DNA of 64,000 nt, taken from contig NW_026516776.1 in assembly GCF_025766255.1 (NCBI RefSeq), positions 1 to 64,000 of the forward strand, given 5' to 3'. A model generated the notes under the pieces. The model saw only the letters and a list, made by a program, of their open reading frames with translations, made no database searches and was not told the DNA's origin. Numbering within the stretch: position 1 is the stretch's first letter; the number at the start of each line of letters is the position of its first letter. Source of the stretch: Zychaea mexicana. Taxonomy: Eukaryota; Mucoromycota; Mucoromycetes; Mucorales; Lichtheimiaceae. Shown here piece by piece: positions 1 to 64,000 of the stretch. The position numbers and the translations under genes are program-made.

Positions 1-1958
1 CAAGCAGCGTTAGCACGTGGTCTTCTAGAGTCAGACGATGAATGGAATCGTTGCTTAGAAGAAGCATCAGCAGTAGCACCATCTGCATCCGCAATCCGCG
101 CACTTTTTGTGTGCATACTTACCAGTTGCTCGCCTGCTGATCCGCTGTCCTTATGGAACACCTATCGCGATCGAATGGCCGACGACTACTTTTTTGAGAT
201 GCGCAGGTCGCTCTCTATGCCAAATGAGGCCGAATTGACACCGATCAACTAGACCAGGTTTACCAAAGAGCACTTGGTGACATCGAGTCACGTTTACAAG
301 CAACCGGTCATCGTCTGTCAGAATTCCCTCTCTCCCTCAAGACTTTGTCACCGAACTTGATCTGTTGCCTCCTTTGGAAGCACTCGAGATTGTCGAACGG
401 CGCGAGTACGATCAGGAAGAGCAGCGTCATCTTCTTCAGACGCTGTTGCCAACATTAAACGACGATCAACGACACGCCTTTGACACCATCTCCACTGCCA
501 TCAGCCGACCTGACGACGATTATAACCACGGTTTTTTTCGTGAACGGACCTGGAGGAACTGGCAAGTCTCAGCTGTTCAAGACTCTTCTGAGCCATACGC
601 GCTCCCGCGACATGATTGCACTGCCTGTTGCTTCTTCCGGCATTGCTGCAATCCTGCTTCCCGGCGGACGTACGGCACATAGCCGCTTCAAGATTCCGTT
701 AAATGCAGACGCGTCCACCTCCTGCAATATTCGTCTCGGTGGTCCTCATGCCCACTTGATACAGAGTACCTCTCTTATCATTTGGGATGAAGCTGTTATG
801 TGCAGCAAATGGAATTTTGAAGCTGTTGACAGATCACTTCGTGATGTCATGGGTGCCGTTGACCCTCGCCTGAGCAATGTTGCTTTTGGTGGAAAAGTTG
901 TCGTTTTTGGTGGTGATTTTCGCCAGTTGCTGCCCGTCGTCAAGAAAGGGACTCGGTCCGAAATTGTTGGTGATTGCATCCGTTCTGCTTCTTTTTGGAG
1001 TGATGTTCAAGTATTGCATTTGACCATCAACATGCGTGTACGTCACGCCGGTCCTGCTGCTCCCGCATTTGCTGAGACACTTCTTGCCATTGGCGATGGA
1101 CGTGCTCCATATACAGAAAGCGTAGAAATTTCTCAGGAATGGCGTATGGATGCAGCAGACACCATGGGTCTTATAGACGCCATATATCCCAACATAAGCA
1201 ATCCACAGCCGCAACCTGAAGATTTCAACGCTCGCGCCATATTGGCAGCAAAAAACGTCGACGTCGATGCGATTAACGAGGCAGCCTACGGTATTTTTCC
1301 AGGTGAAGGGCGCGATTATGCTGCCAATGACCGTATCATAGACGCTGATGACCCAGAAGCAGCAGTGGTCAACTATCCCGTCGAGTTTTTAAACAGTCTC
1401 AGCGCTAATGGCATACCTAGCCATACGTTACAGCTCAAGCCTGGCATGCCTGTAGTGCTCATGCGCAACTTGGATCCCGACGCCGGCCTGTGCAATGGCA
1501 CAAAATTATTCGTGACAAGGCTTCTTGATCGGTGTATTGCCGTGAAAAGAATTGACCAAGGGCATCGTGGCCCGGAATTTTTCCTTCCACGTATCAATAT
1601 GTGTACAATGGAAGGAGATTATCCCTTCATCCTCTGCCGCCGCCAATTCCCTGTCCGCCCTGCCTTTGCTATGACCATCCACAAAGCGCAAGGGCAAACC
1701 CTGCAATATGTCGGTGTCCGCCTTGCAGAAGATGTCTTTGCTCATGGCCAACTATATGTTGCGCTATCTCGGGCAACTGACCCTAACAATCTTCGCGTTG
1801 CCATCGATCTCTCAGGGTCTGGACCACCACAAACCACCAACATCGTCTACCAAGAAGTTCTCTTGCATCCGCCGGCCTCTGTTCCTGAACAAGCCGAAAA
1901 TTCACCACCAACCTCTCCCACAACAACAATCACCGCATTTCCACCTCCATCACCTTGA
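1..1958 (+). pseudogene. Helitron Pif1-like helicase, decayed and cut by left edge
   Basis: This is the C-terminal helicase part of a Helitron RepHel protein, a rolling-circle transposase that unwinds and strand-transfers element DNA. From about 530 to 1958 one frame is open and carries Walker A GPGGTGKS (near 544), Walker B-like IIWDEA (near 777), GGDFRQLLPVV, the NMR motif, KPGMPVVLMRN and the C-terminal HKAQGQT and YVALSRA motifs. Upstream the protein can be followed in three frames: frame 1 from base 1 to a stop at 250, then shifts near 250, near 330 and at the T run near 530. The Rep nuclease (HUH) half is not in the window. I read it as a dead copy, because each upstream break disrupts conserved helicase sequence and no splice sites explain them. 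Family assignment is firm; the element boundaries are not visible. Confidence 0.85.
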
Positions 1959-2559: not shown

Positions 2560-4480
2560 TTATAATCCTAGTTCGTCAAATAAATCGTCGGTCGTCATCC
2601 CAATATTAGTACTATTACCATCGATACTATTACTGCCAAAAGTTTGGGTTTCAACTTGACCCAGTGAACTTTTGTCGTCCTGTTTGTTTGACATTTCAAC
2701 ATCACTTGTCGTTGGTGTTTGAGCACCCATGGAGTTATCGAGTGACATGTAACTCCCTTCTGCAGCCGCTTCTTTCTCTTCTTCTTCGTTTGGTTTCCGG
2801 TATACTACTCCTAATCCATCATCGGTAACATCACTCTCGTCACCATCATCGTTATTGTCAGGCACATGCAGAGCATTGTTATTATGGCTGTTATGGTGGA
2901 TATCCTCCTTCAAATCGCAATCAAGAGCCTAATAATACACCGACAGCCATAGTTTAGTAGCAGCTAGTAAAAGGGCAGCATGAGATTTACATACGGCAGC
3001 ATCATTTGTCTGATAAGGTTTTGTACTTGGTTTGATATGTCGGGTCGCTACCTCGTCCATAGTGTCATGATAAATGTCGTCATCTCCATCACTATGATTG
3101 GTAGCAGTATAATCCTGGCGCGATTTCCTTTCGTAAGCTCTGATTGCTTCCTTATCATCAACAGAAGCATCGTTGTTTTCGTCATTATCGTCACTTTCTT
3201 TGTATGATTTCGCTGCGGTTGACTTGGTAGCAGTCCGTCGCGGATTACGCTTTCGTGCTGTGATTTTTTTTGGATCAATCATCATTGGGTCATCGTCGCC
3301 CTCCTCCTCACTATCGTCCTCTCCCACTTGCTCCTTTATAGTTTTTTGTCGTGCTGATGATTTTGCTGTAGTAGCAGTTTTTGGCTTTTTTGTTCGTGTC
3401 GTTTTCAAGGAAGTGCCGATATCATGCATCCCCTCATTGGCAGCAATTATCTCATCGGTATTTTGGCGAGCTTTCCGTTTTGTCGCTTTTTTCGGCGTCG
3501 TCTTTGCCGCCGTTGCAGAGTCGGCGTCTTTCTTGCTACGTCTATTTGATTTGGGCTTTTCTTCCTCTACTGCTCCCGGTTTGGCCCAAGGCAGTATCCG
3601 ACGGCCGACAGGTTGCTTTGATGTGGATTCTGCTGCCGGTTTCTCTTGTTTTGGTTTTTCAGAGTCATCTTCGTGAAAGGATCGCTGTTTGATGAGGGAG
3701 AATGCGGGATCACCTGTTGCCTTTGAACTTCCTGAAACAGTCGTCATTGACTGAGCATTTGTAGATGTAACAGAAGGTGATGTGAGCTGTCTCTCTGCTT
3801 CTGGTGTTGGCGGATGCCGGGTGGATTTGGATGTGTTTGCACTAGCCTTTGGCATATCGCTCGTGGGAGTAGTTGCAGTGCTCGGTTGTGGCCGTTCTGA
3901 TCGAGCCACGTAATCGAATTCATCCGTGTTCACCATAAACCGTAGTAACAGTGCTGTGCAGTGCTTACATTTACCATGTTTTCCCACTGGACAAGAGCAG
4001 GAGCCATCTTTAAATCCTACGTACGGATAGTGATATTTTATTAAAGAAAGGAGATGTTAACAATCTGTCAGTATACTCATGCTTTAAGCTTGCAAAACAT
4101 TTACCAATCTCTTTTTGTGACTCGGATGTTAATGTGATGGATACGACATAGGCTTCTTTTGCAGTTCCGTGAGCGTTGGCCCAAATATCAATGCTGTCCG
4201 CATCCCCAGCTATCTTCATTTGATCGAGCTTATCGAGTATCGTTTGACCTCGTGAGCAAGCGCCCTTGTTACCAATATACGTTTTGATGGCCTCGTTGTC
4301 AAGACGATCAGCAAAACCATATCGTAGTTTTTCAATTGCATCTTCATCCATGCCGTTTTGATCGTCTTGCTGAATATTATGAGTGGATGAAGATCCTTTC
4401 AGATTATTATCATCATATTGAAATGACATAGGGTGTGTCTGTTGTTTGGCGCCGGACTTGTCTGTTTCGATATTTTCCAT
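2560..4480 (-). CDS. SWIM zinc-finger nuclear protein
   Basis: Three exons (4480-4105, 4016-2995, 2928-2560) join in frame to 588 aa; both introns are GT-AG. Residues about 126-147 hold a SWIM zinc finger, C132-x-C134-x7-C142-x-H144-x2-A147, which exon 2 completes directly after the first splice. The trailing Ala matches the extended CxCx(n)CxHxxA form known from Sws1/Shu2 recombination proteins. The region after about 170 is low in complexity and rich in Lys/Arg, Ser/Thr and acidic stretches, with several basic NLS-like clusters. The last exon is acidic and ends in DDLFDELGL. SWIM domains bind DNA or protein partners. The overall protein is larger than Sws1, so orthology is not claimed; a transposon-derived SWIM protein is an alternative. 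A nuclear role is inferred from the basic clusters. Confidence 0.75.
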
Positions 4481-9114: not shown

Positions 9115-11419
9115 TTAGATCCACCATAATAAGCTACGGAACGTATGAGAGTAAGCAATTTGATAGGTCAACCAGATCACCATCACTACAGAAGTAAATC
9201 ATCTACGGTCAGTTCACCATGATCTACATTGAACAAACATATAGAAGCAGCACTTACAGCATAATAATGGTACCCAGAACGAGAACAGGCGCTGATCTCT
9301 CCGCTTCTTATCTTGCATCGTTTCAAGTCCCTTTGGATAGTAACTGTCGTATGACGAGCTGGCAGCAGATGAGGACTGTGATATCCCTTCTGGTGTTGTT
9401 GTAGATGACGATGGCGTGGCTGGATAGGCGGATATGTGATGTTGTTTTCGGTTAAGTCGGGAGGCAGATGATGAAGATGATGATGAAGCAGATGATGATG
9501 ACGATGATGATGACGAAGATGGTGGAGATTGGCTGTTCCGTACGCCCATTGCATAAGCAAGGGCCATATACCAGGCAAGCGTCTGCTCTGGCTCTTCGGT
9601 GGCGGTGGTATTCTTGGGCGCATCGGGAGACAATCGTAGTATGGACATGTTGGCAATCATGGTAGTAGGGCGAGGAAGTTGTAGTAAGTGGTCGGCAATA
9701 TTTTTCATAGTCAAGTCGGATGGTTTGGTGGCAATGTTGTTTTTCAGATTTTGAAGGAACGAGCTATCCTGCGATGTTGACCGCTGGTGTTTTGGCTGTT
9801 GGAAGTGTGACAATGTTCGCTGCATCCAGTTGGATGATTTTTTGTTGGAGGGTATCTCATCATCGGAAGAGGAAAGAGCGTCTTGTTCATGCACAGGTTG
9901 AGCGTCTAGAATTTCGTCGGCGGAATTCGAGTCCTCGTCGTCTAACTGCAGGTATTGGATCGATGCAACTTGCTGCTGCTGTGGTGACTCGTCCGTGTGT
10001 TGCTGTTGTTGACGTCGTCGGCGCCGTAAGCCTTCTGAAATTGTCGTCGAAGGTTCACTGCTCGCAGTCGAAGAATCGGACACATAGGCTTGTTGCCACT
10101 CAGTCTTTTCTTCCGAGTCACTGCCAATCCAGACACTGTCGGAATCATCATCCTCTTCTTCCTCGGAATTGTCACCTTCCTCGTCATACGATGTGTCGAC
10201 ATCAGCGCTCATGATATCCGAGAGTGAATCTTCGCGGTGCGAGGATTCGGACGTTTCCCGATCGTCCAACGGCATATGGTTCAACAACAATGTCCGGATA
10301 CTATAATCCTTGGCGAGATGCATGGGTCGTTTGTTTTGCAAGTCGTAAATCTCTGGATCTGCTTCACCTTCTTCCAACAACACACGGGTAACGTCTTCGT
10401 GACCGAACCATGAAGCGTAATGTAATGCTGTAGATCCATTGCGATCCGTGTTGTCGACCGAGCAGCCGAGATCCAACAACGCCAGCGTTAATTTCGTGAA
10501 TCCAAGCATGGCCGCCAAATGCAGCATGGTATGGCCCTGAGCATTTGCAATGGAAACATCGCTGGACTGCACATCTTCCATCGTATCCATCACTTCAAGC
10601 ACTTGAATAATGTGCCGTTCGAGGTTAGCTTGCTTATTCTGCTGTTGCAGGTGCTGCTTCTGTGTATGCTCTTGTTCCTGTTGTAATTGTTGTTGCTTGC
10701 CGTTGTTACTGCTTCCAGCATCGTTTCCACCGGAGCCAGTTGTTCCTTCGGATGATCGCTGGTTCTGGTTACCGCCTTGGACAATCCGCATGGCGATTTC
10801 TCGTGCGTCCTCAACCTTTCCTGTCATCTTCAATCCGACCACTTGAAGCGCAAGCTCCATCAATGCCCGATCGTTTTCGTTGTAGTAAGTGAACAGCATC
10901 ACTTCTTGACTGTCCATGACGACGGGATATTCCTTGAAGGATACCACGACAGGCCCTGGTTCAGCCACTGCAGGCAAAATACATACGAGCGTGTTGGGTG
11001 ACCAGAAATGTGTGCTTGAAGCAACCACATCGCCAAACATGACCGTCAAGCCGGAGCGGAAGTTCGTACCGAGGATCGTTACTTCGATACCACCAAACGT
11101 AGGACCTTCGTTTGGAATTAAGCGTTGTAGTTGCGGACGTTCTACGGCGGGTGGCGTGGGTGGTGGGGGTGTTTGCGTCGAAATTTTGCTCGAGCTGGGA
11201 CCTGCAGTAGTAGTAGTTGCTGCAGCAGCAGCAGCGGCAGCAGCAATGTTTGAGAACAGGCTCTGATCCAGTTGTTGCTGCATCTGCGCCATTTGAGACG
11301 ACTGGAGGAACGCGCTCATTGCAGGATCCATCGGTGAGACCTGCGAAGATGATTTGACTGCAACTGGTGAATGTTGCTGTTGCTGATGTTGTTGCTGTTG
11401 TTGCTGTTGCTGTTGCTGA

Positions 11420-11458
<39 letters not shown>

Positions 11459-13610
11459 GGTAACTGTTGTTGTAGTTGCTGTGGCGACCGTTGCTGTGCT
11501 CCCGATGGCGCAATCGTCTGGTCAGGGCGCGGTTGGATGGAAAGTTGCGGATTAGGAAAGGGAAACTGCATGGGCTGTGCGGCACTGACTTGCTGTGGGT
11601 GGTGAAACGTGCTAAATGAAGCTGCTGCAGCGAGCATAGCTTGCGTGTTGGGCTGTTGTTGTTGTTGCTGTTGCTCTGCGTCGACACGCGGTCGCTTACG
11701 ACCAGCTTTCACCTTGTTTGACTTGTGGTCGTCGGTAATCATGATAGGTGGTGACATGCCCGAAGCAACTGTCTCGCCAGTGTGATCCTGCATCTCGAAA
11801 TATATGCTATTAAAATACAAAAATGTTAGATATACCGCATTTGGTTCGGTGCACATGACTGATTGGCAATACTATATAAAAACTACATACCAGAAGCCGA
11901 GTCGTTCGTTATGATGTCGGCAGTAGCATGTGATGCGGGTGGGTAAGATGGTGTCGCCTGAGCTGAAGTCAACGACTTCTGAGCAGTTGAAAAGCAGCAC
12001 TTTTTGTTCTTCCATTGCCAAGGATTTCTCGTCGTCGGCAGGGCGCTTTTCTTCTTCAATCTCTGCTTTGACCCGGTTTTCTTTCCTGCGCTGTGATCGC
12101 TTGCGCTATATTACATAATGCAATGGATTGAAAGCATGTGTCGGTTAATCGGGTCATTATCCTCTTTTAAACGGCTATTAAGAGCTCTTACCTCTCGTTG
12201 GATGCATCCCAAACAAGTAACGACTTTCCTGGATGGATCACTGGCGCAGATCACACGAGCACTCAAAAAGAGCATCTTCTCTGGACTTATCGGCATGTTG
12301 TTGCTATCAAGACCGGCGACATTGGCGATCCGGGTGCCATTGGGAGCGGTTGACAGCATGATCTGGCGCTTGAGTTTATCCTTCGCGACCATGTGCTCGG
12401 GAAGTTTAAGGTGTGACCACCATTGTGCCTTATCGCCGTCATCGGTTACAAGCTGGATGCATAGCTTGATTTGTGTCTCGACACGCGATTTTGCGCCCTG
12501 TTGAGGTACACCGAGCACTCTGATTTGCATGCCGCCACTATATAGAAAACACGGCAATAGATGTAAAAACTGTCAAGAAAAAAAATCCCCCCAAAGATGG
12601 CGATAAATAAACTTGTTTTTGCTTACCTTGTGTTTTTGGCTTTGTGATTGTCCGGCTTGATAGCTGCTGCATCCGGAGACATCATGGGCGGCGTTGGAAT
12701 GGCTGCATGGGTTGAAACGGCAGTAGACGAGTTTTGTGTTGCAGCAGAAACGGTATTCCTGAAGAGAAGAGTGAAAAAAAGAACGGTTTAGAGTTACGGG
12801 TTCCTGGTTTTTTTTTTGCGCCTATAACCGGGCAATGTTTGCTGTTTGTTTGTTATTCTTATAATAGGCTTACATTGAGCCGGGCATTTGAGCGGGATAG
12901 CTGGAAGATAGGTAGTCTGTGAAATTGCGTGCGAGATTAGGAATGGCTTGAGGGAATGGATTCTGCGCAACATTTGAAAAGAACTGAAAAAAAGACCTGA
13001 GTTATTAAAAGAAATCTCTCAATGTGGCAAAAAAAATGCCAGTGACCCGTGGAGCAAATGTGGAGACAAAAAAACTTACGTTATTGACTCCTGACCAAAA
13101 GGTCTGGTTCGTTTCTGGGGCTGACGATGAGTTCGACGGTTGAAGCGGCTCGACCAAACCGTTGCTCGGGTTATTCCTGGTCGTCGATGCTGACGGCGGC
13201 ACAAATGGGTGCTGTTGTTGCTGTTGTAATAACTGTTGTTGCAATGACGGCGATAACTGCTGTTCAACCGATGACTGCCGAGTACTACTATTCGCTTGAA
13301 GCGGTGAGGCTGCCGAGCCCAATTCCGAATCGTTAGCTTCGGCCATGGACTGATCTTCGTCCACCATCGTGTACGGGCTATTACTGCTGCTGGAACTTTC
13401 GTTCTTTATCTGCTGTTGTTGTTGGGCTTGTTGTTGCATAAAGTAAAGAGGATTGTCCGGTGACAACTGGTCGAGCTTATAGAAAAAAGACTGGTCAATG
13501 AATGGTTGTTGAATTTGCATCGAATCGTCATGAGGCTCGCTAGTCGATGAACCGGACGGTGAATCGCAATCTTCTATTGGTACGTCCAATAAAGGACTCG
13601 CTTGAGGCAT
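9115..13610 (-). CDS. Mga2/Spt23-like membrane-tethered transcription factor
   Basis: Seven exons (13610-13080, 12983-12874, 12758-12627, 12537-12192, 12105-11891, 11806-9258, 9185-9115) encode 1317 aa. In order: a Ser/Gln-rich N terminus, the conserved Mga2/Spt23 N-terminal region (about 260-440, starting MQIRVLGVP and with CLGCIQRE followed by a basic RKRSQRRK), a polyGln tract (about 560-592), a short polyAla run, an IPT/TIG domain (about 672-756), ankyrin repeats (about 865-950), an acidic and Ser-rich region, and a single C-terminal membrane segment (about 1288-1308) completed by the 71-nt last exon. In yeast such factors are ER-anchored, sense lipid packing, are released by ubiquitin/proteasome processing and activate the fatty-acid desaturase gene OLE1. 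The intact tail anchor suggests the same mode here. Confidence 0.92.
11367..11462. repeat. CTG/CAG-type polyGln tract
   Basis: An interrupted run of TTG/CTG-type triplets lies inside the Mga2-like gene and encodes mostly Gln with a few His. It is a candidate for length variation between strains. A second, shorter tract is at about 11654-11677. Confidence 0.8.
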
Positions 13611-50886: not shown

Positions 50887-52237
50887 TTAATCCAAATATT
50901 CGGGATCGATCCAGTCGGTTCCCAAGTCCAAATTGTCAAAATAAGTTTTAGCGCTAAGGTATGCTGTAGCCTCCTCTTCAGAGATCTGCTTTGACCATGA
51001 CACGCGGCCAGAAGTATCGGCTCCAGGACCAGTGTTGCCATATTCTGCATAGAAAACATTGTTTTTGAGTTCTTCATCGGAAAAGTTCCAGGCATCCCAA
51101 CCTTCCGGTCTACATTGTTAAAGGATGACAATCAATAAGCAAAACGTAAAGGTAAGTAAGCGCCTTAGCAATCCACCCTCAAAAAAATTTATGGTATTTG
51201 ATAAGCAGCTCAATGTGTATAAAAAAGTACGTACCTGATATGGCCCATGATATTGCTGTGGACGATTATTACACGAGGTCCATTATGCCATGGTCGTCCA
51301 AGGATAGTAGAAGCTTCGTACTCGTCAGGAGAAAGTGGCGAAGAATACGAGTGATCATCTTCTTGACGTTTGTCGTAAATTGAAGAGACAACAGGAGTGA
51401 AGTTTGCCTGGTTGAAAACAAATCCACCAGCAGTATTATCAAGCAGAGTTGAGGCAGCAGTGACAGCACCCTTTCCGCTACATGCCACAGTAGACTTGTA
51501 AACATAGAGATTATACTCTCCGTATAAATAGTCGACAGCTTATTACAAGAGAACGGGAAGAACGAAAAAAACGAGAATGGTATAAGTATGTTATACAATG
51601 TCCGTATCATTTAAGTGATTTTCTCTCTCTCTGTCTTGGTGAGTAAATTTAAGGTCATTTACTTACTGCCTTCAACCCAAGTGTTATACAGGTAGCCGCT
51701 GCCACGAACGAAAAATGCTGTGTCACCAAAACCAACCAGTTTGCAGTTATACATTGCCAAGCGCGCACCATATGTTCGTAAGGCGTTTTGATTGCCTGCT
51801 GCCTCTCCAATACTGTTGATAATTTCAAAGTTGTAGAAAGCAATATTTTCACCGGTACTTTCAATGTAAACTACAGCATAGTTTTCAACGGACTGCTCTA
51901 AGACAACTTGTCCTGATTCCGAGGGCTTGAAAACGATGTTGGGGCGGCTGATAGTGATGTTTTCATTATACGTTCCACTTTCGACTTCAATTATAGCGGA
52001 TGAATCATCGTCAGGGAGTGAATTGATGGCATCTTGAATCTAAAGAGGCTTAATGTTGAGCATAATTACATCGGACACCTCACGGTCTGTGAAATAATAG
52101 AAGGTATGGAGCATCTGCGTTATATGTCTTACCGAATCTCCAAGAGAGACTTTAACAGTAGTACTGGCCGCAAGTATACTAGGCAAGAACCAGCTAGAGA
52201 TGGCTAGTAAAGAGAGAAGATAATGTTTCGAAAGCAT
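50887..52237 (-). CDS. secreted pectin methylesterase (CE8 family)
   Basis: Five exons (52237-52133, 52039-51667, 51538-51517, 51477-51235, 51109-50887) encode 321 aa. An N-terminal signal peptide (about 1-23, ending near SILAAS) directs secretion. The beta-helix enzyme removes methyl groups from pectin. Motifs: ESGTYNENITI, YNCKLVGFGDTAFF with catalytic D141, TVDYLYGDG with D162 (carried by a 22-nt exon), and ILGRPW with R228. The two Gln of the usual oxyanion hole appear replaced (N118 and G140), which is unusual. The C terminus WSKQISEEEATAYLSAKTYF is typical. A plant-litter or plant-infecting lifestyle would fit. Confidence 0.88.
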
Positions 52238-53290: not shown

Positions 53291-56200
53291 CTATCTGGTA
53301 TATTTCCAGAGACAGTACCCAAGGATCACAGCTAAGTTCCCTATAAACACCTCCTCTGAACGATCCAAAACATGGGTAACTGCTCTAGACTGCTTGCTCT
53401 TTGCGAAAATATGTACTGACGATGATAGGCTTGACGATGATAACGGTTCTACTGTGTCGACAGTAATGATATGAACAAAATACTCTTGTACAGCGCTTGG
53501 ATTGAAAAGTAACAGATGACGTCGCGTTGATGTCGCATTCGACTCCACTAGAATCCTTGATGTGTTTGGATAGAACCGATGGATGGAGTCCAACAAATTA
53601 CTCCAAGACAGTTCAAGTCGCAAAAATTTTTGCAGAGAAGCCTCAGAGGAAACAGCATCTAGTGCATAGAACTCGTCCGCCAACTCGATCAGTGCTTGAA
53701 CATTATCAGCACTTGCGTCTTTTTTTCCAATGGCTTGGTATAGCTGATTCCACATAACATCCTGATGGTATAAGAAAACAGCCTATTTTCATTGTTGTGG
53801 GAAGAAGAAAACCGTTGAAAAATTAATTCAGTTGTGTCTCTTCCTTCTCTGGATGTTTACCTGTTTCATCAAGTCATCAATCCGTTGTCTTGCTCTCAAT
53901 ATAACGTCTCCTAATGTATGTTTCTCAGGTTCTAGTACTTCTTGCAAGGATCCAGATAAGTTTCTCGGTTTGTAACGAGGCGAATGTCGCCACGATTTTT
54001 CTTTTGTCCGGTATATTTCTGGCTCGTGATACGTGACAATAACAAAATATTGCACTGTAACCTTGGAATCGCTGGTTGACGTTGGTGTAGTAGCAATATC
54101 GTGGATCGGTGAATTTGGATAATCGTACCGACCAGGATGACCGTCACTGCCACTGCTGAAATCCCGCTCATAGATATTGTCGGTAATAAGTAGAGTATAT
54201 CGATAACAGCTATTTGAGTTGCCATCACCACTTCCTTTGACGAATGAAGGATCGTCCGATGATACAAAGCATGCCGTAGGGGTGCCGTTCGTGTGGAGTG
54301 ACTCGAATCCATACTTGGAGGCGTTGCGGATGACCATCGGTAGCAAGTTTTTCATATTATCCTCTTCTTCATCGGAAACAAGCTCGTAGAAGCCTCGAAT
54401 GATACGATTTCGAGAGTAGTTGGCTGGCTTATAGTACAATGAGAATGTGTTTTTGATGATACCCAGTAAGTCCACCGAGGACGGAAGCGATGACGCATTA
54501 TCCAGAGATTGCTGGATAAACTTCAAGTTAAAGTCATAGACGAACGAGTTAACATGAATTTTTTGCTTGAAACGGTCACATTCTTCGGTAAAATCCTTGA
54601 AATCAGCTCGTCGCTTCTCGCTACTCTCATGCATATAGGGGGATTGGGTCATCATTAAACGGCCATAGCGACGATGCAAGGTGTATAGAGTCACGGATAC
54701 AAAGACGTCGGTGAGTCGAGCTTCGCACATTATGGTTCCACCGGGGAAAACTTGAAGCAAATAGATGACAGGTGAGTGTACAACAAAGTCATCTGCAACT
54801 TTGTAGCGAGAAAGATACACTCCTTGGTCTTCCTTGCTCGTATTACTGTTTCCAGATACACCATGCACAATGACGTGCATGCCAACGCTCTCCAAATAAG
54901 ACGCGTATTCCGCCATAAATGTTCGTGCCAGTCCTTCGTACCACATCATTGTTTCCTCCATAAGCTGATGCTGCTGAATTGTCTCAATGCTGGTGCTAAA
55001 GATACTCGATCGCTTTGGGTCGATGTCCGAGAAAACCAAAGGCGTTCTGCAAAAATGCAACAGCCGCGATGATTTTAGAATGAGTCGGAGCTCGGTTACT
55101 GACATCATTTCCGAAGCATTTTCGCGTTCTTTTGTTGTTTCTGATGGTTGCATTGTAGAGTAGCGACTCGCCCATTTAATGTATACATTAAATGCCTTGT
55201 CGTGTGCTGCACGCAACTGTGAGTGTCTCATAAATGTGCTGAGGAAAGGTGTGCCGTGCTGCGTCAAATAGTCAAGTTGCTGTTCCTCTTCTGCTGCTGC
55301 TGCTTCTGTGATGGGATGGTCTGGCAGTGTTGTATACGCATCACGCAACGCAGTATTACAGTCCTTTAACAATTTGTTGGATGACGGATGGAATGTTACG
55401 GCTCCAGATATCAGCGTCGAAATCTTCGGATTAGAGAGACGCGTTGCGCTGGAAGTGGTGGATAATGAAGGACGTCCAGGATGCTCTGTAGCAGAATAAC
55501 TGTTTAGATGAGGTGTATTCGTTACCAAGTTTTTCAGTATTTCTACACCAAAAGTGGAGTCGTCCTCTGTAACAGAGGTCACAAAAGATCTTGCATCGTT
55601 GCATATGGTGCCAAGCGTTTCTGAATGCTGGAAGAGGCCCAACTTTTGGTGCACAACGTTTTGTAACATGCGGACACGGTTGCCTTGCTGAGCGACTGTC
55701 TGCTCGATCGCTAGAGTGAGCTGGTCGACAAACGTTCTTGCGTAATTATAAGTGTACAGTGTGATGTTCCCAGCGTCGAGGAGCACCAAGTGGAAAGCGC
55801 GACGGTGAGTGGCGTCTTTGTGCGATCCAGACTTTGGCTGCTGTTGCTGTTGTAGTAGCTTACTTATCGGGTTTTTGTTACTGCTGTTGTTATTGTTGAC
55901 AACATTCGAGGACGCAATTGATTCATGGCGGCTGTGTGCACTGTTTTGATCTGCCCTTAATATCGTCGCTACAGTATCACCGCGGTTTGGTGGGTCGTCA
56001 GTGATACTGGTAAATTCTGGCTGCTTGGTTGATGTACTGTAATAATGTTTGCATCCAGAAAGTTCATGAAGACCGCTAATGATTGAGTATCGGATGTTCT
56101 TTTGTGGTTGCATCATGGCTTGCGCTTGGTGGTTGAGCTCTGTTTCTGTGTAGCAAGCTCTATATATATTGGTCTGGTTGCCTAATAGCTGGTGATGATA

Positions 56201-59200
56201 GTCATCACTGGTTGGACTTTGTATTCCAATAACTGACTTGCTATTCGGATTCAGATCTACAAAGTCAGCATTCAGTTGCTGGACAACTTGGCTCAGGCAC
56301 CAAGGCTGTAACTTGATCGAGCGAGAGGCCATGTGTACACTTGGATTACTCCAGTGATACGCGCCATCAAAGACCTTAACAAATGATGAAAGTAAAGCGC
56401 TTAGTGCCGCGTCGCTAATAGCAAGATCGGACGATCCTCCGTCACCTGACACTGATGTAGTCGCTGTAGTTGTCGTTGGCATTGCGCTAGACACCGCTCG
56501 TTCAATGATATAGTCACATATGCTTTGTCGAAAGCTCTTATGGATATGGTCGTAGAGCGCTCCGGCGTCAACTTGGCCAACTGTCCAAATATCAACTGAG
56601 AGGGTAGTGCCACGCTGTTGTTGTTGTTGCTGATGTTGCTGTTCGCTAGCGACGCATGCAGATTTGGATGCAAAACTGGATAGCAAACTCCAAGGCATTG
56701 CTGAGTCCTGTCCGTCCGTACTATCCGACGGATTTTGGAAATCTTCTTCCTGCGACCATGATGACTCGCTGAAAGAGAGAATGACTCCAGCCACACCTTG
56801 TCCAATGCTTAGCTCGAGATCTGTGCATACACCAGGCGTACGATTGATACAGCTATAGTAGAAGCATAACTCTTCCACTACTGGATTATCGACATTACTT
56901 TCCTTCCTGTTGATGTACACGGGCCGTGTTAGTATAAACGACGCTATTCTTTCATCGTATAAACATTGTTTATCCTTACTGCATGAAAAAGGGTCCTTTG
57001 CCAAAGCTCAAGTTGCTGTAGTGTTGACGGAGCCGATAGTTTTTGAGTGCAGAAGTCAGCCCGTTGCCTGTGAGAACACGAATGGAATTCGTCAAGACAC
57101 TCTCGCGCAAGAGCCGAGAAAATTGCTGAACATCAATAACATCCACGGGTACTTGCAAGCTTTCATGTACCATTGGAGCTTTATCCACTGGAAGGATAAA
57201 GTCAATATCCTACATTTTAAAACAACAGTACCTTAAGTATAATTGCAACAGAAGGCAAGATCATGTCCCATATAAGACTTACTGCGCGAGATAGTTTGGA
57301 ACCAGGATTTCGAAGCAAGAATTGCTGCACTTCTTTAAGTGTGACATGGGACATTAAGCGATTCTCGAGTAAATCGACCAGTTCGTCGGAGATCCAGTTG
57401 GGCAAATCCACACCGTACACTTCAAGCACAAGCTCACGCGATTCAGATGTGCGTGCTGTCTTTCGCGGTTCCGGAGATAGCTGAATGCTGTTCGTGCTAT
57501 GCACTTTACCACCAGGGCTCGACCGTGGACTTGTCCGACGACTACTGTTGTTTGTTGTGATTGTACCAGCTACGGCAGAACCATCATGCTGAGGCTGGGA
57601 GTATGCTGCTGTTGTCGGCTGTGCGGATTGTGTACGGGAATGATGTGAGAACGCCATCATTGGTGGATCATTTATACCCATGGCGAGTAATGAATTATGG
57701 GGTGAAGTGGCTCGAATCGACTGTTGCTGCTGTTGCTGACCATCATCCGTAGCAGCAGAAGGATAATCAATACTGCTTTCCGCGTAACAGTGGTTGATCA
57801 CCGTATTTTCGCGCAATGTGCAATAGATAACAGTATCATCGCGCATACAGACAAAAATGTTTGGTCTATTTCGCACCTTAAAATGTCGCAAGACATCGGA
57901 AGAAAGCGCGTTGAGAGCAATATTGGGTTGCAGTCTCCAATGGAGAGGGAATCGCCAAGTAAAGATAATATCGCAGGCAAACTGGCCAGGTTGAAACTTT
58001 TTGGGTGGTGTAAAAGAGGTTTCTTCACCAGATGTTGAAAGCATCTCGACCAAGTTTCCTCCTGTGGTATTCCTTAGTTTTGATCTGTCGCTGTTGCTGT
58101 TGCGATTGTTGCCGTTGCTGTCGTCCGACGATTCGTCTGTTGATATTTCGTTTGGATTATTCGCTGCCGAGCCTTCATTCGCTAGCAGATATTTGCTAAA
58201 AAGTGTTTCGCCTGGTGTCAATCTCTTATTTTTCCATACACACGTTGTCACTTTCTATTCATTTTTGCTAACCTGCACACACGCGTAGCATTCAGATGCT
58301 GCAAGAGCACCAGCTTGTTTGTCCGCTCAATAGCATCATTGATCATAACTTTGGTCATCCGTACGATCTCTGAACGGTTGACAGATTGCGGCATCTTCGA
58401 GTAAAAGTATATTTGAATAGTCTGCGAACGAGGGATTATCAAAAGCCAATAAAGCTGCTGGTAAGCCTGCCTATCCGCGACATTGCTTGCTGCCATAGAA
58501 TCTTCCTCGTCCGAGAACACATCTGGCTCCATAATACTGATGCCCAAACCTTCGCAAAAGTCATCATTCTGCGACCCACCCTGCTGCTGCTGTTGTTGCT
58601 GATGCGTTGGTTGTTGTTGAGGAATAAACGGATGATGGTGTTCTTTGTCAGCATCAACCTCAATACCAAGGTCCGTATAAAAGTCAGCACCCTCGTGATT
58701 ATTGCTCATGGTTTCGGATCGATTAAAGTAGCTTTCACCGGTATCAAATATGTCGCCATATTCCTTGTGATCGGTGGCATAGAAGCAATCACCTACACGA
58801 ACCAGTTTGTATGGCGTCATCGTGTTCCGCTCGAGTTGCTCGAGAAAGACGCGTCGACTCATATGTCGGTCCTTGACAAATACCAAGGGAATGACCATCG
58901 TGGTAGGAAAATCCACAAACGGGTTCTTCTTCATGAGATGGCTTTGAATGTATCGCACAACAACGTCAGTGACAGGGCCAGCTCGCAGTAGTCCGTGCAT
59001 CACTTCCTCGGTCAAAAGCCAGGTCAATCGTGCTTTTGTTTCAATCAGGGCGCCTTGCTTTTCTTCGCTTAAGCCAGAGAGTGCTTCACGATATTCACCT
59101 TCGTTGTCAAAGAATGATCTATGCGAGTTGGTAGTTGCCCCAATTTTCTTTTAGTCCATTTGAAAAGATCATCAGAGAGAGAGAGAGAGAGTAGAAAATA

Positions 59201-62200
59201 AAGAGAGCACGAGACTTGTACATGTATGGATACTTTACGATTGATGATGCACAGGGCTTTCTGCTGGACAGCCATGAACGTGTCGAGGTTGAATCGCTGG
59301 TGCATACTTGGTCTGTGGGATTGTCATACAAACGAGCCGAACAGTAGCTGATGATTTATCCACAGACGCTACTGGCGACTCCATGGAGCCAATATCGACA
59401 GGCTCGTAATTGAATGGTTGACCTTTATGTTGCCCTTCATAAGATGTTGGCAAATATTCCAGCGGGAGCGTTGTGCTTGCAGCATGTTTCGGGCTCTGCA
59501 ACGTGTACTCGAGTCGGATGAACAGGGGACATTGAGCAGAGACGACAATATCAGCTAACCTTGTCAACTTGTTTCCAGTCTCTGCTTTGTGATGTCCGAT
59601 CTTAACATGAGCTGGGCGATAGCAATAAATGAATTGCCGCTTTTTCTTGGAGTACATGACTGGCTCAAAGTAATGCTCAAGGACGGAGCTAAACCGCTGC
59701 TGAGCAGAATTCCACTCCTCTACACTGTAAAACGAAGCTTGATCGATTTATATCATAGATCGTTTCCATGGTATTTAAACTTATATATATAGCGTGTTGT
59801 TTACCTTGTTCTCCCATGCCGTTTCAGCAATGTTTGCACATTGAGATACCCAGTAAGATCAATATCAAGCACAGTCTCCTCGCAAATATCCAACACCTTG
59901 TCAAAGTCATGGTCAGCAATCACACTGCCGAACAAGAGCGATGAGTAGATGGATTTTGCATAGCAGCTCGAATAAATATCAGTGATATCTTGCAAAAGCC
60001 GGGACTTGAAATCCGAAAGCACCACTTGTTGCTGATCTTCGCCCTCGCCGGCATTCATGCTGTTGTTGTTGCATTGATAGTAACCGTTCGTAAGATGTGG
60101 TGATAAGATTGATTCTTTGATGGATGAAAAATCAATCTCTCTGAACGTGTATCCCTTGCTATCGTTGTTACTGCTATTGTCCTCTTCGTCATAACAATGA
60201 TCACCACCGCGAGCTGTCGTAGTCGATGATGGCGTCTGGCGATGACATTCAAATAAAAGAAATCCAAGATGATAATGATCGGTAAAAAGCGGATCGTCAG
60301 CTCGTTTGGTAGCTGTTCCATGGATGAGCGTTGCAAGAGACGGTGTAAGAACGACGATAAATGTGCTAGGGTTGAAGATTTTGACAAAGCACTGCATATC
60401 GGTAACTCGTCGTAACAGACGCAATGTGCTTTCTGATGCATGTGTGTCTTGACACCCAAGTATTTCGCGGAAAAACGTGGACCAAAAACTGTCATGTGTC
60501 GCCGTCAAGGGCGATTTCGTGTCCATCTCGCAGTCAGACAGTACGCGCAGATACTGCTGAAAATAATAATGGGTCAAAGCTACATCACGATAAGGAGCAG
60601 ATAAGTCGGACAGGGCTTCTCTGAATAAAAGAAAATCGTGATCAGGCCGTGGACATTGACATGTTGAGCTTTGATTGCTGTAGCTGTAGCTACCGCCTCG
60701 AACAAGACTAATAGATGGTGACGCAATGGTGGTATTATTGCTTGAACCATGCCAGCTTCTCGAATGGCTCTCTTCTATCTTGGGTCTGCTGTTAGCCGGT
60801 GGTGCCACCAAAGGCAAGTACCGTTCAGTCTGCAACCAGACGACGGCCATGTCCCTCTTTTGTGCTTCGGCAATAATATCCGACGCAGCAGTACCCTCGT
60901 CGTTATAGGTAGGTGGCATTAACGCGCCACGCATGTTCACGATATTATTGCTGGTGCCTACAAGCTGTTGTGGACACGGATACACAGCAATCGAGAACGC
61001 ACTCAGACGGAGGACGGATGTTATATCAATCACCATGCTCTTTTTTATGTGATGAATACCGAGCAGGTCATCATCCAGATGCAATACATCCGCTCTACTG
61101 GCACTCAGCGACGATGATGGAGGCGAAATACCACGTTGTTGTTGGTATCCGGCGACAAATGTCCAGTCAAACGTAACAAGTTTGGACATGATTTTTCTAT
61201 CGTGGTGAAACAGTCGTCGTTGCTCTGTTTGCACAATGTCCCGGTCAATGCGGTGCACGTCTCGAGTCACGGGCTCTAGCCACAGCTCTGTCGTCAACGT
61301 TTGCTTGGATGAATTACGCCAAATGAAATACTGGGCTGAGCGATCAGGTGCACGATCTTGAAACTCCTTGTAAAAGTGGCATGCATTCTCGCTAAACGAT
61401 ATCAATACGTAACCCTAGAAAATAAAAAAGAGTCGATGCGTTTTAAGTAATGCTTTCAGAGAAAAAAGCATGAAAATGCAACAATCATTTATCACACGCA
61501 TACCTCCTTAAGTCTAACGTGACATAATCGCTCAAACGCAAGATCATGGAGTGGGTGTAAGCCATAGAAATCACTTGCATCAACAGTTGTCGTCGTCACC
61601 TTGGCATCCCATATCCATCGTTGGCGACGCAGATAGTTGCGTACAATGTACTCTCCGGCTAGCAGTGTTGCTGTCGTAGGTCTCCTTCGATCATAGCCGT
61701 CTTCGCGCTCCTTGGGAACACCAAAATAATGCTCTGGATCGCGCATTAACAAACCAAAAAGTGGACGTTTGGCTACTTCAATCTTGGCCATATTCGGACG
61801 AGTACCACTATCACCGCCTACGTTATTATTTAGAGGATGTTGGCCGATTTCAAGATCTGCAAGAATTTGCCCTTCGTCCAACTCAATTCGCGTGCTCAGC
61901 ATATGCATCAAATCATCCATGATACGCGATCGCATTTCGAGAGGTGTGTTAAAGAACCGTGCATCAACATGGATTGTCCGAAGGTTCTCGTGCGTGATTT
62001 GTATTTCGTAAAGTCGACAGTAATTGCCATTATTGCTGCAATTGCTTGCTTGTTGCTGTTGGCTTGTCGAATGATTGGAAGAAGGTGAAGGGAAGAATAT
62101 CTTGACGAATGTGCCTCTACTGCTGACGAAGTCGGTCATCTTGGAAAGTAAATCATACAATCGATCCAATATAGTGGATATCACGGCGTCTTCAGCTGAC

Positions 62201-64000
62201 GCAATAAATGCTGTAGTTGCGGTACTGTTGCGATCGGCATAGCAATAATGTGGGGTAAAATGCAAGATGAGATCAAAATGGTGATTGGTATCGTACCAGC
62301 ACGCCGTGCTGTGCCGTGTGTCGCTGCTGTCGTCCATCTTTTGCCATAGTTCTTGAAACTGGGCAATGTAAGACGATGGTGATACATTTCTTCGGCTACC
62401 GTTGTTGCTGTTGATGATGTTGTTATTGCGGGAATGACCATTGGTATCGTTTCCCAAGGATAGGATCGTGTTGAGGTGCTTGTCGGCTTCGGATATAGAT
62501 GTCAAGAGTTGCTTTAACTTGCTGATCTTCAGAATGCCTGCAGACCCAGAAAGGTTGTTGCTAACACCTGCACCATTTGCGCTTGTTCCTGCTCCGCCTG
62601 TAAAGATTCCCATGACTTGAAACCGACGTTGAAACGCGTCCCAATTTCTGAGTAAATGCGAAAACGTGCTATTTGCTCGAATGAGAATCTCGGCCTTTGG
62701 ATTCGTTAGTGATTCGAGTAATCTGCTGAAATCCGCATCGGGTAGATAGGCTGCTGTGGCGTCGTCATGGTCTTCGAAAATTGTGCCAGTGCCAAAATAG
62801 CTGGAGAGAATCAAGTCGTTGTTGGATGATAATACAGCGCGGATACGATACTCAATCGTAATTTGAGGCTGCCATTGAAGCGTCAGAGCAATCACTACTT
62901 GGACTTTCTTGCCTCCTCCTGCTCCTCCGCCTCCTCGCGAAGAACTGCTATTCAACGGAGTCGTAGAACGTCTTTTATCGAGTGTAATTGAAACGAGAGA
63001 GAACCCTTGTCGTGTACGTGCAGCAATGACGTGTGAGAGTTTGCTGGGTAATGCGTACTCTTGATACCGTAGCACCTTTGACTCGGTTACTTCGGGTTCA
63101 GCATTCGGATTCCAAGGAAACCCGTTACGTGATGCTGCTGCTGATGCCATGGCAAGATAATTCCCCTGCTGAGCTTTTTCGGCTGCTGCTGCTACTGCTG
63201 CTGCTCTACTTGTAGCTGTTGAACCAGTCCTAAGAGCAGACTTGTCCAAGAATATCTCGCGTAGCAAAAACTTGCGTTGTGGAAAGCTAAGGTCAGCCAT
63301 GATGCGATCCAGAATGTCCTGCGTGACAATCGGCTTATTGCTGGTGTTGTTATTGGTATAATAAGCGGCGTCCATTCTACCCATACCAAGTAAATCCTCG
63401 ATATGCATGTACTGGCCACCTGTAGCATTTGCCACGAATTTCAGAATATCCGTGTCGGGTATAAAGCCAAAGTTGCAATCCATGAAGGGTCCTGGACTGA
63501 TCTGCACGATGTTGCACGGGATACCGTCGCTTGACAGCTGGCGAATGACAAATTCGTCTTGAATGTTGGATTTGACGACACCATCTGTCATAAGTATCAA
63601 AGAGCGTTGGCCACTGTCGGGTAGTAGACCAAGTGCGAGCAATCCAGCATGGAGTATATACGAAAGGTTGCTGCCTGTTTTCCCAACGCCCCAAACGTCT
63701 TTTTTCGTAGTATTATCGTTGGATCGGTTATGGCGCGTGTTACTGCTGTTGAAAGAACGAGCGGTAGTGTTGGTCGATTTCTGTGTGTTGTTTGCTTGCG
63801 TTTTGGTATTCTTGGTCTTTTTAGTTGCGCCTGATTTGCCATCTTTGTGCGTTTTTTGGTCCTTTTTCCTATTCGTCGTTGTTGTCTTGGCTTGCGTTGT
63901 TGCTGGTTGTGATGGCTGCTGTTCTTGGGTTTTCGTCGTCATCGTTGCTGTTGTCGTTGTTTTATTGATATACGTCGAATTAAACAAACCGCCTTCATGA
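53291..64000 (-). CDS. SZT2-like KICSTOR subunit, 5' end beyond right edge
   Basis: Eight exons in the window (from the edge to 61504; 61414-59805; 59724-59239; 59118-58273; 58222-57283; 57209-56980; 56948-53861; 53761-53291) give 3388 codons plus stop; animal SZT2 has about 3430 aa. Near the left of the protein a von Willebrand A-like segment reads NLSYILHAGLLALGLLP, LILMTDGVV, CNIVQIS and FGFIPDTDILKFVANATGGQY, which aligns block by block with SZT2. SZT2 is the scaffold of KICSTOR, which holds GATOR1 on lysosomes so that amino-acid or glucose shortage switches TORC1 off. Fungus-specific low-complexity inserts (Thr/Lys/Asn, Gln, His) interrupt conserved blocks. The 58222-58273 intron is 50 nt; the intron at 56979-56949 is only 31 nt. 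The start codon is outside the window. Confidence 0.82.

Follow-up and report, generated by a model that had tools for sequence, protein, structure and literature searches.

Human has a single SZT2 gene, whereas the fungus Zychaea mexicana carries two paralogous ones. One of these, here called SZT2-A, lies in the stretch of DNA analysed in this study (the window), i.e. bases 1-64000 of contig C17 (NW_026516776.1; 154,733 bases) in a genome of 50.3 Mb and 305 contigs. Human SZT2 is represented in the PDB by the entries 9o5a, 9o5e, 9o5d, 9v0j and 25ge, of which 9o5e is entitled 'The dimeric KICSTOR-GATOR1 supercomplex'. For fungi, a 2025 Sci Rep survey of TORC1 components (PMC11836306) describes KICSTOR in non-Dikarya fungi, KICSTOR genes together with their expression in Mucoromycota, and multiple (more than two) SZT2 copies in all Mucoromycota members. 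A loss of KICSTOR in Dikarya rests on the same survey. SZT2 and KICSTOR in Mucorales, implied to be new in an initial annotation of the window, are thus correct but already known, and our finding is an independent rediscovery.

We consider SZT2-A, one of two old SZT2 paralogues, most likely to function like animal SZT2 (probability about 0.87). A Pfam scan of SZT2-A gave zero families over cut-off. The existing protein prediction at this locus (P0001, 3,519 aa) was compared with the PDB sequences using phmmer and gave four distinct matches at E <= 0.001, all of them to SZT2 (best E 1.2e-30) and none to another family. The alignment to the 9v0j chain comprises nine collinear stretches that lie between chain residues 80 and 3102; taken singly, two of them pass E 0.001 and three have scores of about 1 bit or below. 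This bears out the initial annotation, which had seen a near full-length SZT2-like gene in an early-diverging fungus. Homology to SZT2 is collinear and extends beyond the vWA-like block, since the C-terminal exon also matches (E 1.7e-14). A profile of seven A-type proteins (relatives of SZT2-A) and one of seven B-type proteins (relatives of the second copy, SZT2-B) reached E 7.4e-66 and 1.3e-69, respectively, and each found four SZT2 sequences and nothing else in the PDB. The B-type protein P0063 of Phascolomyces alone matched PDB SZT2 with E 2.9e-37. In the vWA-like block both copies of the genome contain a TDG motif and a DxSxS motif, the latter presumably a metal ion-dependent adhesion site (MIDAS); in some other rows of the alignment DxSxS is varied or gapped.

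The long open frames on the minus strand, from beyond base 64000 down to 53291, are the exons of this single gene, for which nine GT-AG introns were modelled using the C17 sequence past the window edge (Table 1). From GLSFLEIS on, the model is identical to P0001 over 3,431 aa. P0001 carries 78 extra N-terminal residues, encoded upstream of this point, and terminates within an intron, omitting the conserved last exon (about 157 codons). This exon was kept on the strength of its alignment with the paralogue and the A-type relatives. The 3' splice pair of exon 6 was chosen with the paralogue as a guide, and P0001 agrees with it. Taken together, the 5' part of P0001, the model and the last exon give a protein of about 3,665 aa, with about 3,366 codons inside the window, so that the initial estimate of at least 3388 aa was about right. 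The translation starts of this model and of that for the second copy are not fixed.

The second copy is on another contig and was thus out of sight of the initial annotation, which had only the window. It was detected with the largest exon frame of SZT2-A, which matched, besides C17 itself, two stretches on contig C1; when 1,019 residues of the N-terminal exon on C1 were used as the query, C1 and C17 were the only contigs matched. At the sensitivity used, there are two SZT2 loci in the genome. SZT2-B (C1:639524-649749, plus strand as modelled) has an open frame of 3,228 aa and shares 34% identity with SZT2-A over 2,488 common columns. For each of the six introns modelled on C1 there is a C17 intron of the same phase no more than 3 alignment columns away, while three further C17 introns are without a counterpart on C1. 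Some splice sites were guided by the other copy (the last C1 acceptor is not the top-scoring one), and thus the intron comparison is not fully independent.

To place both copies, 39 of the 71 database proteins obtained in two protein-collection searches (69 and 60 proteins), picked beforehand by name for taxon spread, were combined with the two gene models, giving a tree with 41 rows. Most of the 32 proteins left out were from the Mortierella group; P0001, the two Rhizopus stolonifer proteins, some partial proteins and one unnamed were also omitted. Columns filled in less than 85% of the rows were dropped (2,590 of 6,483 kept), and a quick search under LG+G4 was run on the fungal rows, with no animal or protist rows. 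SZT2-A clusters with the A-type and SZT2-B with the B-type proteins of Phascolomyces (Lichtheimiaceae, Mucorales), Circinella and Fennellomyces. The B-type proteins of two Umbelopsis strains group with Mucorales B (support 100), and proteins of two other Umbelopsis species with Mucorales A (support 66, not strong). One Jimgerdemannia protein (Endogonales), four rows of the Mortierella group and two of Glomeromycotina fall outside the A/B split. The joining of Basidiobolus and Paraphysoderma was flagged as long branches meeting.

The tree puts the A/B duplication before the split of Umbelopsidales and Mucorales and after the branching of the one Endogonales protein. Three alternative placements were rejected in approximately unbiased (AU) tests, the groups for which were named after the tree had been seen: a later duplication with Mucorales A and B forced together (p = 0.0002), a duplication among the nearest relatives of the Zychaea genome (p 6e-30), and all four Umbelopsis proteins forced to A (p 7e-5). 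In the present data, six genomes contain both types (Zychaea mexicana, Phascolomyces, Circinella, Fennellomyces, Radiomyces and Spinellus). From the remaining species the searches yielded one type only; gene models that are short or fragmentary and beyond the length limits would escape, and we claim no losses here. The dated split, the count of two loci and the central-block fold described below are modest additions not met in the main-text parts of PMC11836306, the supplementary SZT2 tree of which may already show the split.

Full-length relatives were found in Mucoromycotina, the Mortierella group, Glomeromycotina, Basidiobolus and Paraphysoderma. A later homology search, in which only candidates sharing most words were scored, gave 32 proteins; all 30 carrying an organism name are from non-Dikarya fungi. 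The tree, which holds fungal rows only, agrees with a descent of SZT2 within the fungal kingdom. The simplest reading would be an origin of KICSTOR before the animal/fungal split, as the initial annotation had supposed. Five Mortierella-group SZT2 predictions (P0043, P0046, P0049, P0054, P0060) are longer (4,251-4,447 aa) and contain a DnaJ domain (PF00226), which could be a real fusion or a recurrent annotation merging of neighbouring genes.

The partner genes named by the initial annotation were matched in the same genome, a search of its contigs giving one locus over cut-off each for KPTN, ITFG2, KICS2 and all three GATOR1 subunits. KPTN was found on C245 as two collinear stretches (49% and 42% identity, E 1.2e-9 and 7.3e-7), and this candidate matches PDB kaptin with E 6.2e-11. 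ITFG2 and KICS2 are partial profile matches: ITFG2 (PF15907) on C273 covers profile positions 263-329 (E 1.5e-6, one of two stretches over cut-off; E 1e-5 against PDB ITFG2), and KICS2 (PF09404) on C168 covers 292-434 (E 5.9e-12) with two stretches, both over cut-off as separate frames. For GATOR1, the matches were NPRL3 on C243 (E 2.5e-85), DEPDC5 on C284 (two stretches, best E 1.2e-96) and NPRL2 on C286 (best E 2.6e-53). Matches to PF04670 (Rag-type GTPase) at three places (C60, C248, C236) are unspecific because this model also matches two of 14 control genomes, both prokaryote. PF11968 (Bmt2) matched one locus, on C146, which may encode SAMTOR or the rRNA methyltransferase Bmt2; the Pfam family presumably also includes the yeast enzyme. 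A sestrin search of the genome, made without a working control, gave no match. A separate FG-GAP/beta-propeller gene on C234 (95260-98379, L010) matched ITFG2 (E 4.9e-6) and the BBS7 propeller model (E 1.4e-5), both just under the cut-off, and shows a weak BBS2 match.

The GATOR1-binding stretch of human SZT2 is reported to comprise residues 1026-1132 (PMC8534408). The central block of SZT2-A has a predicted fold that agrees with human SZT2 within residues 830-1625 of 9o5a_D. This range includes the GATOR1-binding stretch, and a fold like that of the human range is predicted for the central blocks of both copies. The central block of SZT2-A is predicted to share the fold which human SZT2 adopts in the KICSTOR-GATOR1 structure. 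Because the same subunit set is encoded and the predicted architecture is similar, an animal-type mechanism is the best reading. By analogy we infer that SZT2-A would be the long scaffold of a KICSTOR complex together with KPTN, ITFG2 and KICS2. This complex would bind GATOR1 and hold it on the vacuole/lysosome membrane, where GATOR1 would turn off Rag GTPases and TORC1 under amino-acid shortage.

The two copies were compared with seven outgroup proteins of single-copy type; four of these, all Mortierella-group proteins, are not independent. Mean identity to these outgroups in well-filled columns was 32.9% for A (n=6) and 32.1% for B (n=6), indicating that neither copy is decaying overall. Closeness differs by region: B resembles the outgroups more in model residues 436-671 and 862-1328, A in 1492-1971, 2994-3149 and 3287-3454. 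At positions on which six or all seven outgroups agree, 21 changes are fixed in B and seven in A; five of the 21 are located in the vWA block (model residues 92-391). There, all eight Mucorales B rows read AD where the A rows read AE; this site is gapped in three of 20 Mucorales A and Umbelopsis rows, which are outside the A-B comparison. After TDG, the Mucorales B rows continue with A, S or T plus MK, while the A rows mostly read TDGVVK.

These differences might indicate a subfunctionalised pair, in which A and B build alternative KICSTOR complexes from the same partners for different nutrients, growth phases or membranes. We hold this possibility only tentatively. It would account for two open SZT2 genes next to one over-cut-off locus for each partner searched, for the presence of both types in six genomes, and for the uneven fixed changes and regional closeness. 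However, since neither copy is degraded, a divided function is unproved by the sequences, dosage or redundancy is equally possible, and the Mortierella-group outgroups are not independent. As the human KICSTOR-GATOR1 supercomplex is dimeric according to the title of 9o5e, a mixed SZT2-A/SZT2-B dimer is possible, too. For two SZT2 genes with single partner loci, a mixed dimer, alternative complexes and redundancy fit equally well. A more specific and rather speculative form would be an asymmetric KICSTOR in Mucorales and Umbelopsidales, with an SZT2-A/-B heterodimer around single-copy partners providing two non-equivalent GATOR1 docking arms, or with a switchable mix of A/A, B/B and A/B.

It is improbable that fungal SZT2 acts mainly outside KICSTOR, e.g. 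as a general scaffold unconnected with GATOR1. Such a role would agree with the absence of the human stretch 1026-1132 (PMC8534408) from the sequence-aligned stretches among the matches listed for P0001 and for the A-type and B-type profiles against the PDB. But the block spanning this stretch is predicted with the human fold in both copies, and the partner genes are encoded in the genome. An animal contamination or a horizontal transfer from an animal, for which no support was found, is next to excluded by the 154,733-base contig with other genes, by the nine modelled introns, six of them with a counterpart in the paralogue, by 84% identity to the Phascolomyces protein over the conserved C-terminal block and, indirectly, given a tree without animal rows, by full-length relatives widespread in fungi.

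SZT2-A lends support to the published view of the animal-type TORC1 brake as an old trait that the common ancestor of animals and fungi already had. KICSTOR biology could therefore be modelled in early-diverging fungi where yeast is of no use. The duplication represents a natural experiment, with a single partner set and two scaffolds that would have diverged since before the Umbelopsidales/Mucorales split. The A/B pair can be used to separate the SZT2 surfaces needed for common partners from those free to specialise.

Table 1. Exons of SZT2-A as modelled and further genes in the window (window coordinates unless given as C17)
Feature	Position	Strand	Remarks
SZT2-A exon 1	C17 64859-64543	-	outside window; contains GLSFLEIS
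SZT2-A exon 2	C17 64455-64389	-	outside window
SZT2-A exon 3	C17 64323-61504; in window 61504..64000	-	PDB SZT2 match E 1.5e-11; window part: vWA-like N-terminal block, second part (with TDG motif), and the region after it
SZT2-A exon 4, central block	59805..61414	-	predicted fold match to human SZT2
SZT2-A exon 5	59239..59724	-	GT-AG boundaries, paralogue alignment
SZT2-A exon 6	58273..59118	-	GT-AG boundaries, paralogue alignment
SZT2-A exon 7	57283..58195	-	FPLHWRLQPN block, aligning within residues 2029-2121 of 9v0j SZT2 chain
SZT2-A exon 8	56980..57209	-	introns 57282-57210 and 56979-56907
SZT2-A exon 9, C-terminal block	53861..56906	-	PDB SZT2 chain 25ge_C E 1.7e-14; strongly conserved LLHFCRTPL, SVTLYTLHRRYGR and IHVNSFVYDF stretches
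SZT2-A exon 10, last coding, with stop	53291..53761	-	not in P0001; kept in paralogue and A-type relatives
PIF1-type DNA helicase frame	459-1958	+	E 2.3e-64
TIG and ankyrin-repeat protein	9214-11871	-	SPT23/MGA2 DNA-binding match below cut-off
Pectinesterase exon	51659-52039	-	downstream of SZT2-A; E 1.2e-8

Among the further genes of the window, the TIG and ankyrin-repeat protein is possibly an Mga2/Spt23-like regulator of membrane lipids.

Compared with the systems described so far, SZT2-A has in common with human SZT2 the length class, the order of the conserved blocks, the vWA-like N-terminal block, the C-terminal block and the predicted fold of the central block. It differs from the human protein by a low overall identity and by long Q/N/S-rich inserts. 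Phascolomyces articulosus, Circinella minor and Fennellomyces sp. possess orthologues of both copies showing ordinary divergence, with identities over the C-terminal block (model residues 3030-3290) of 82-84% for A and 73-76% for B. The Mucorales relatives are listed as hypothetical, uncharacterized or VWFA-domain proteins. The 'KICSTOR complex protein szt2' of the Mortierella group belongs to the same family, is full length and already bears the name SZT2 in the databases; the four rows used here fall outside the A/B duplication. In Zychaea mexicana two SZT2 loci are detectable, compared to the more than two copies given for Mucoromycota members in PMC11836306.
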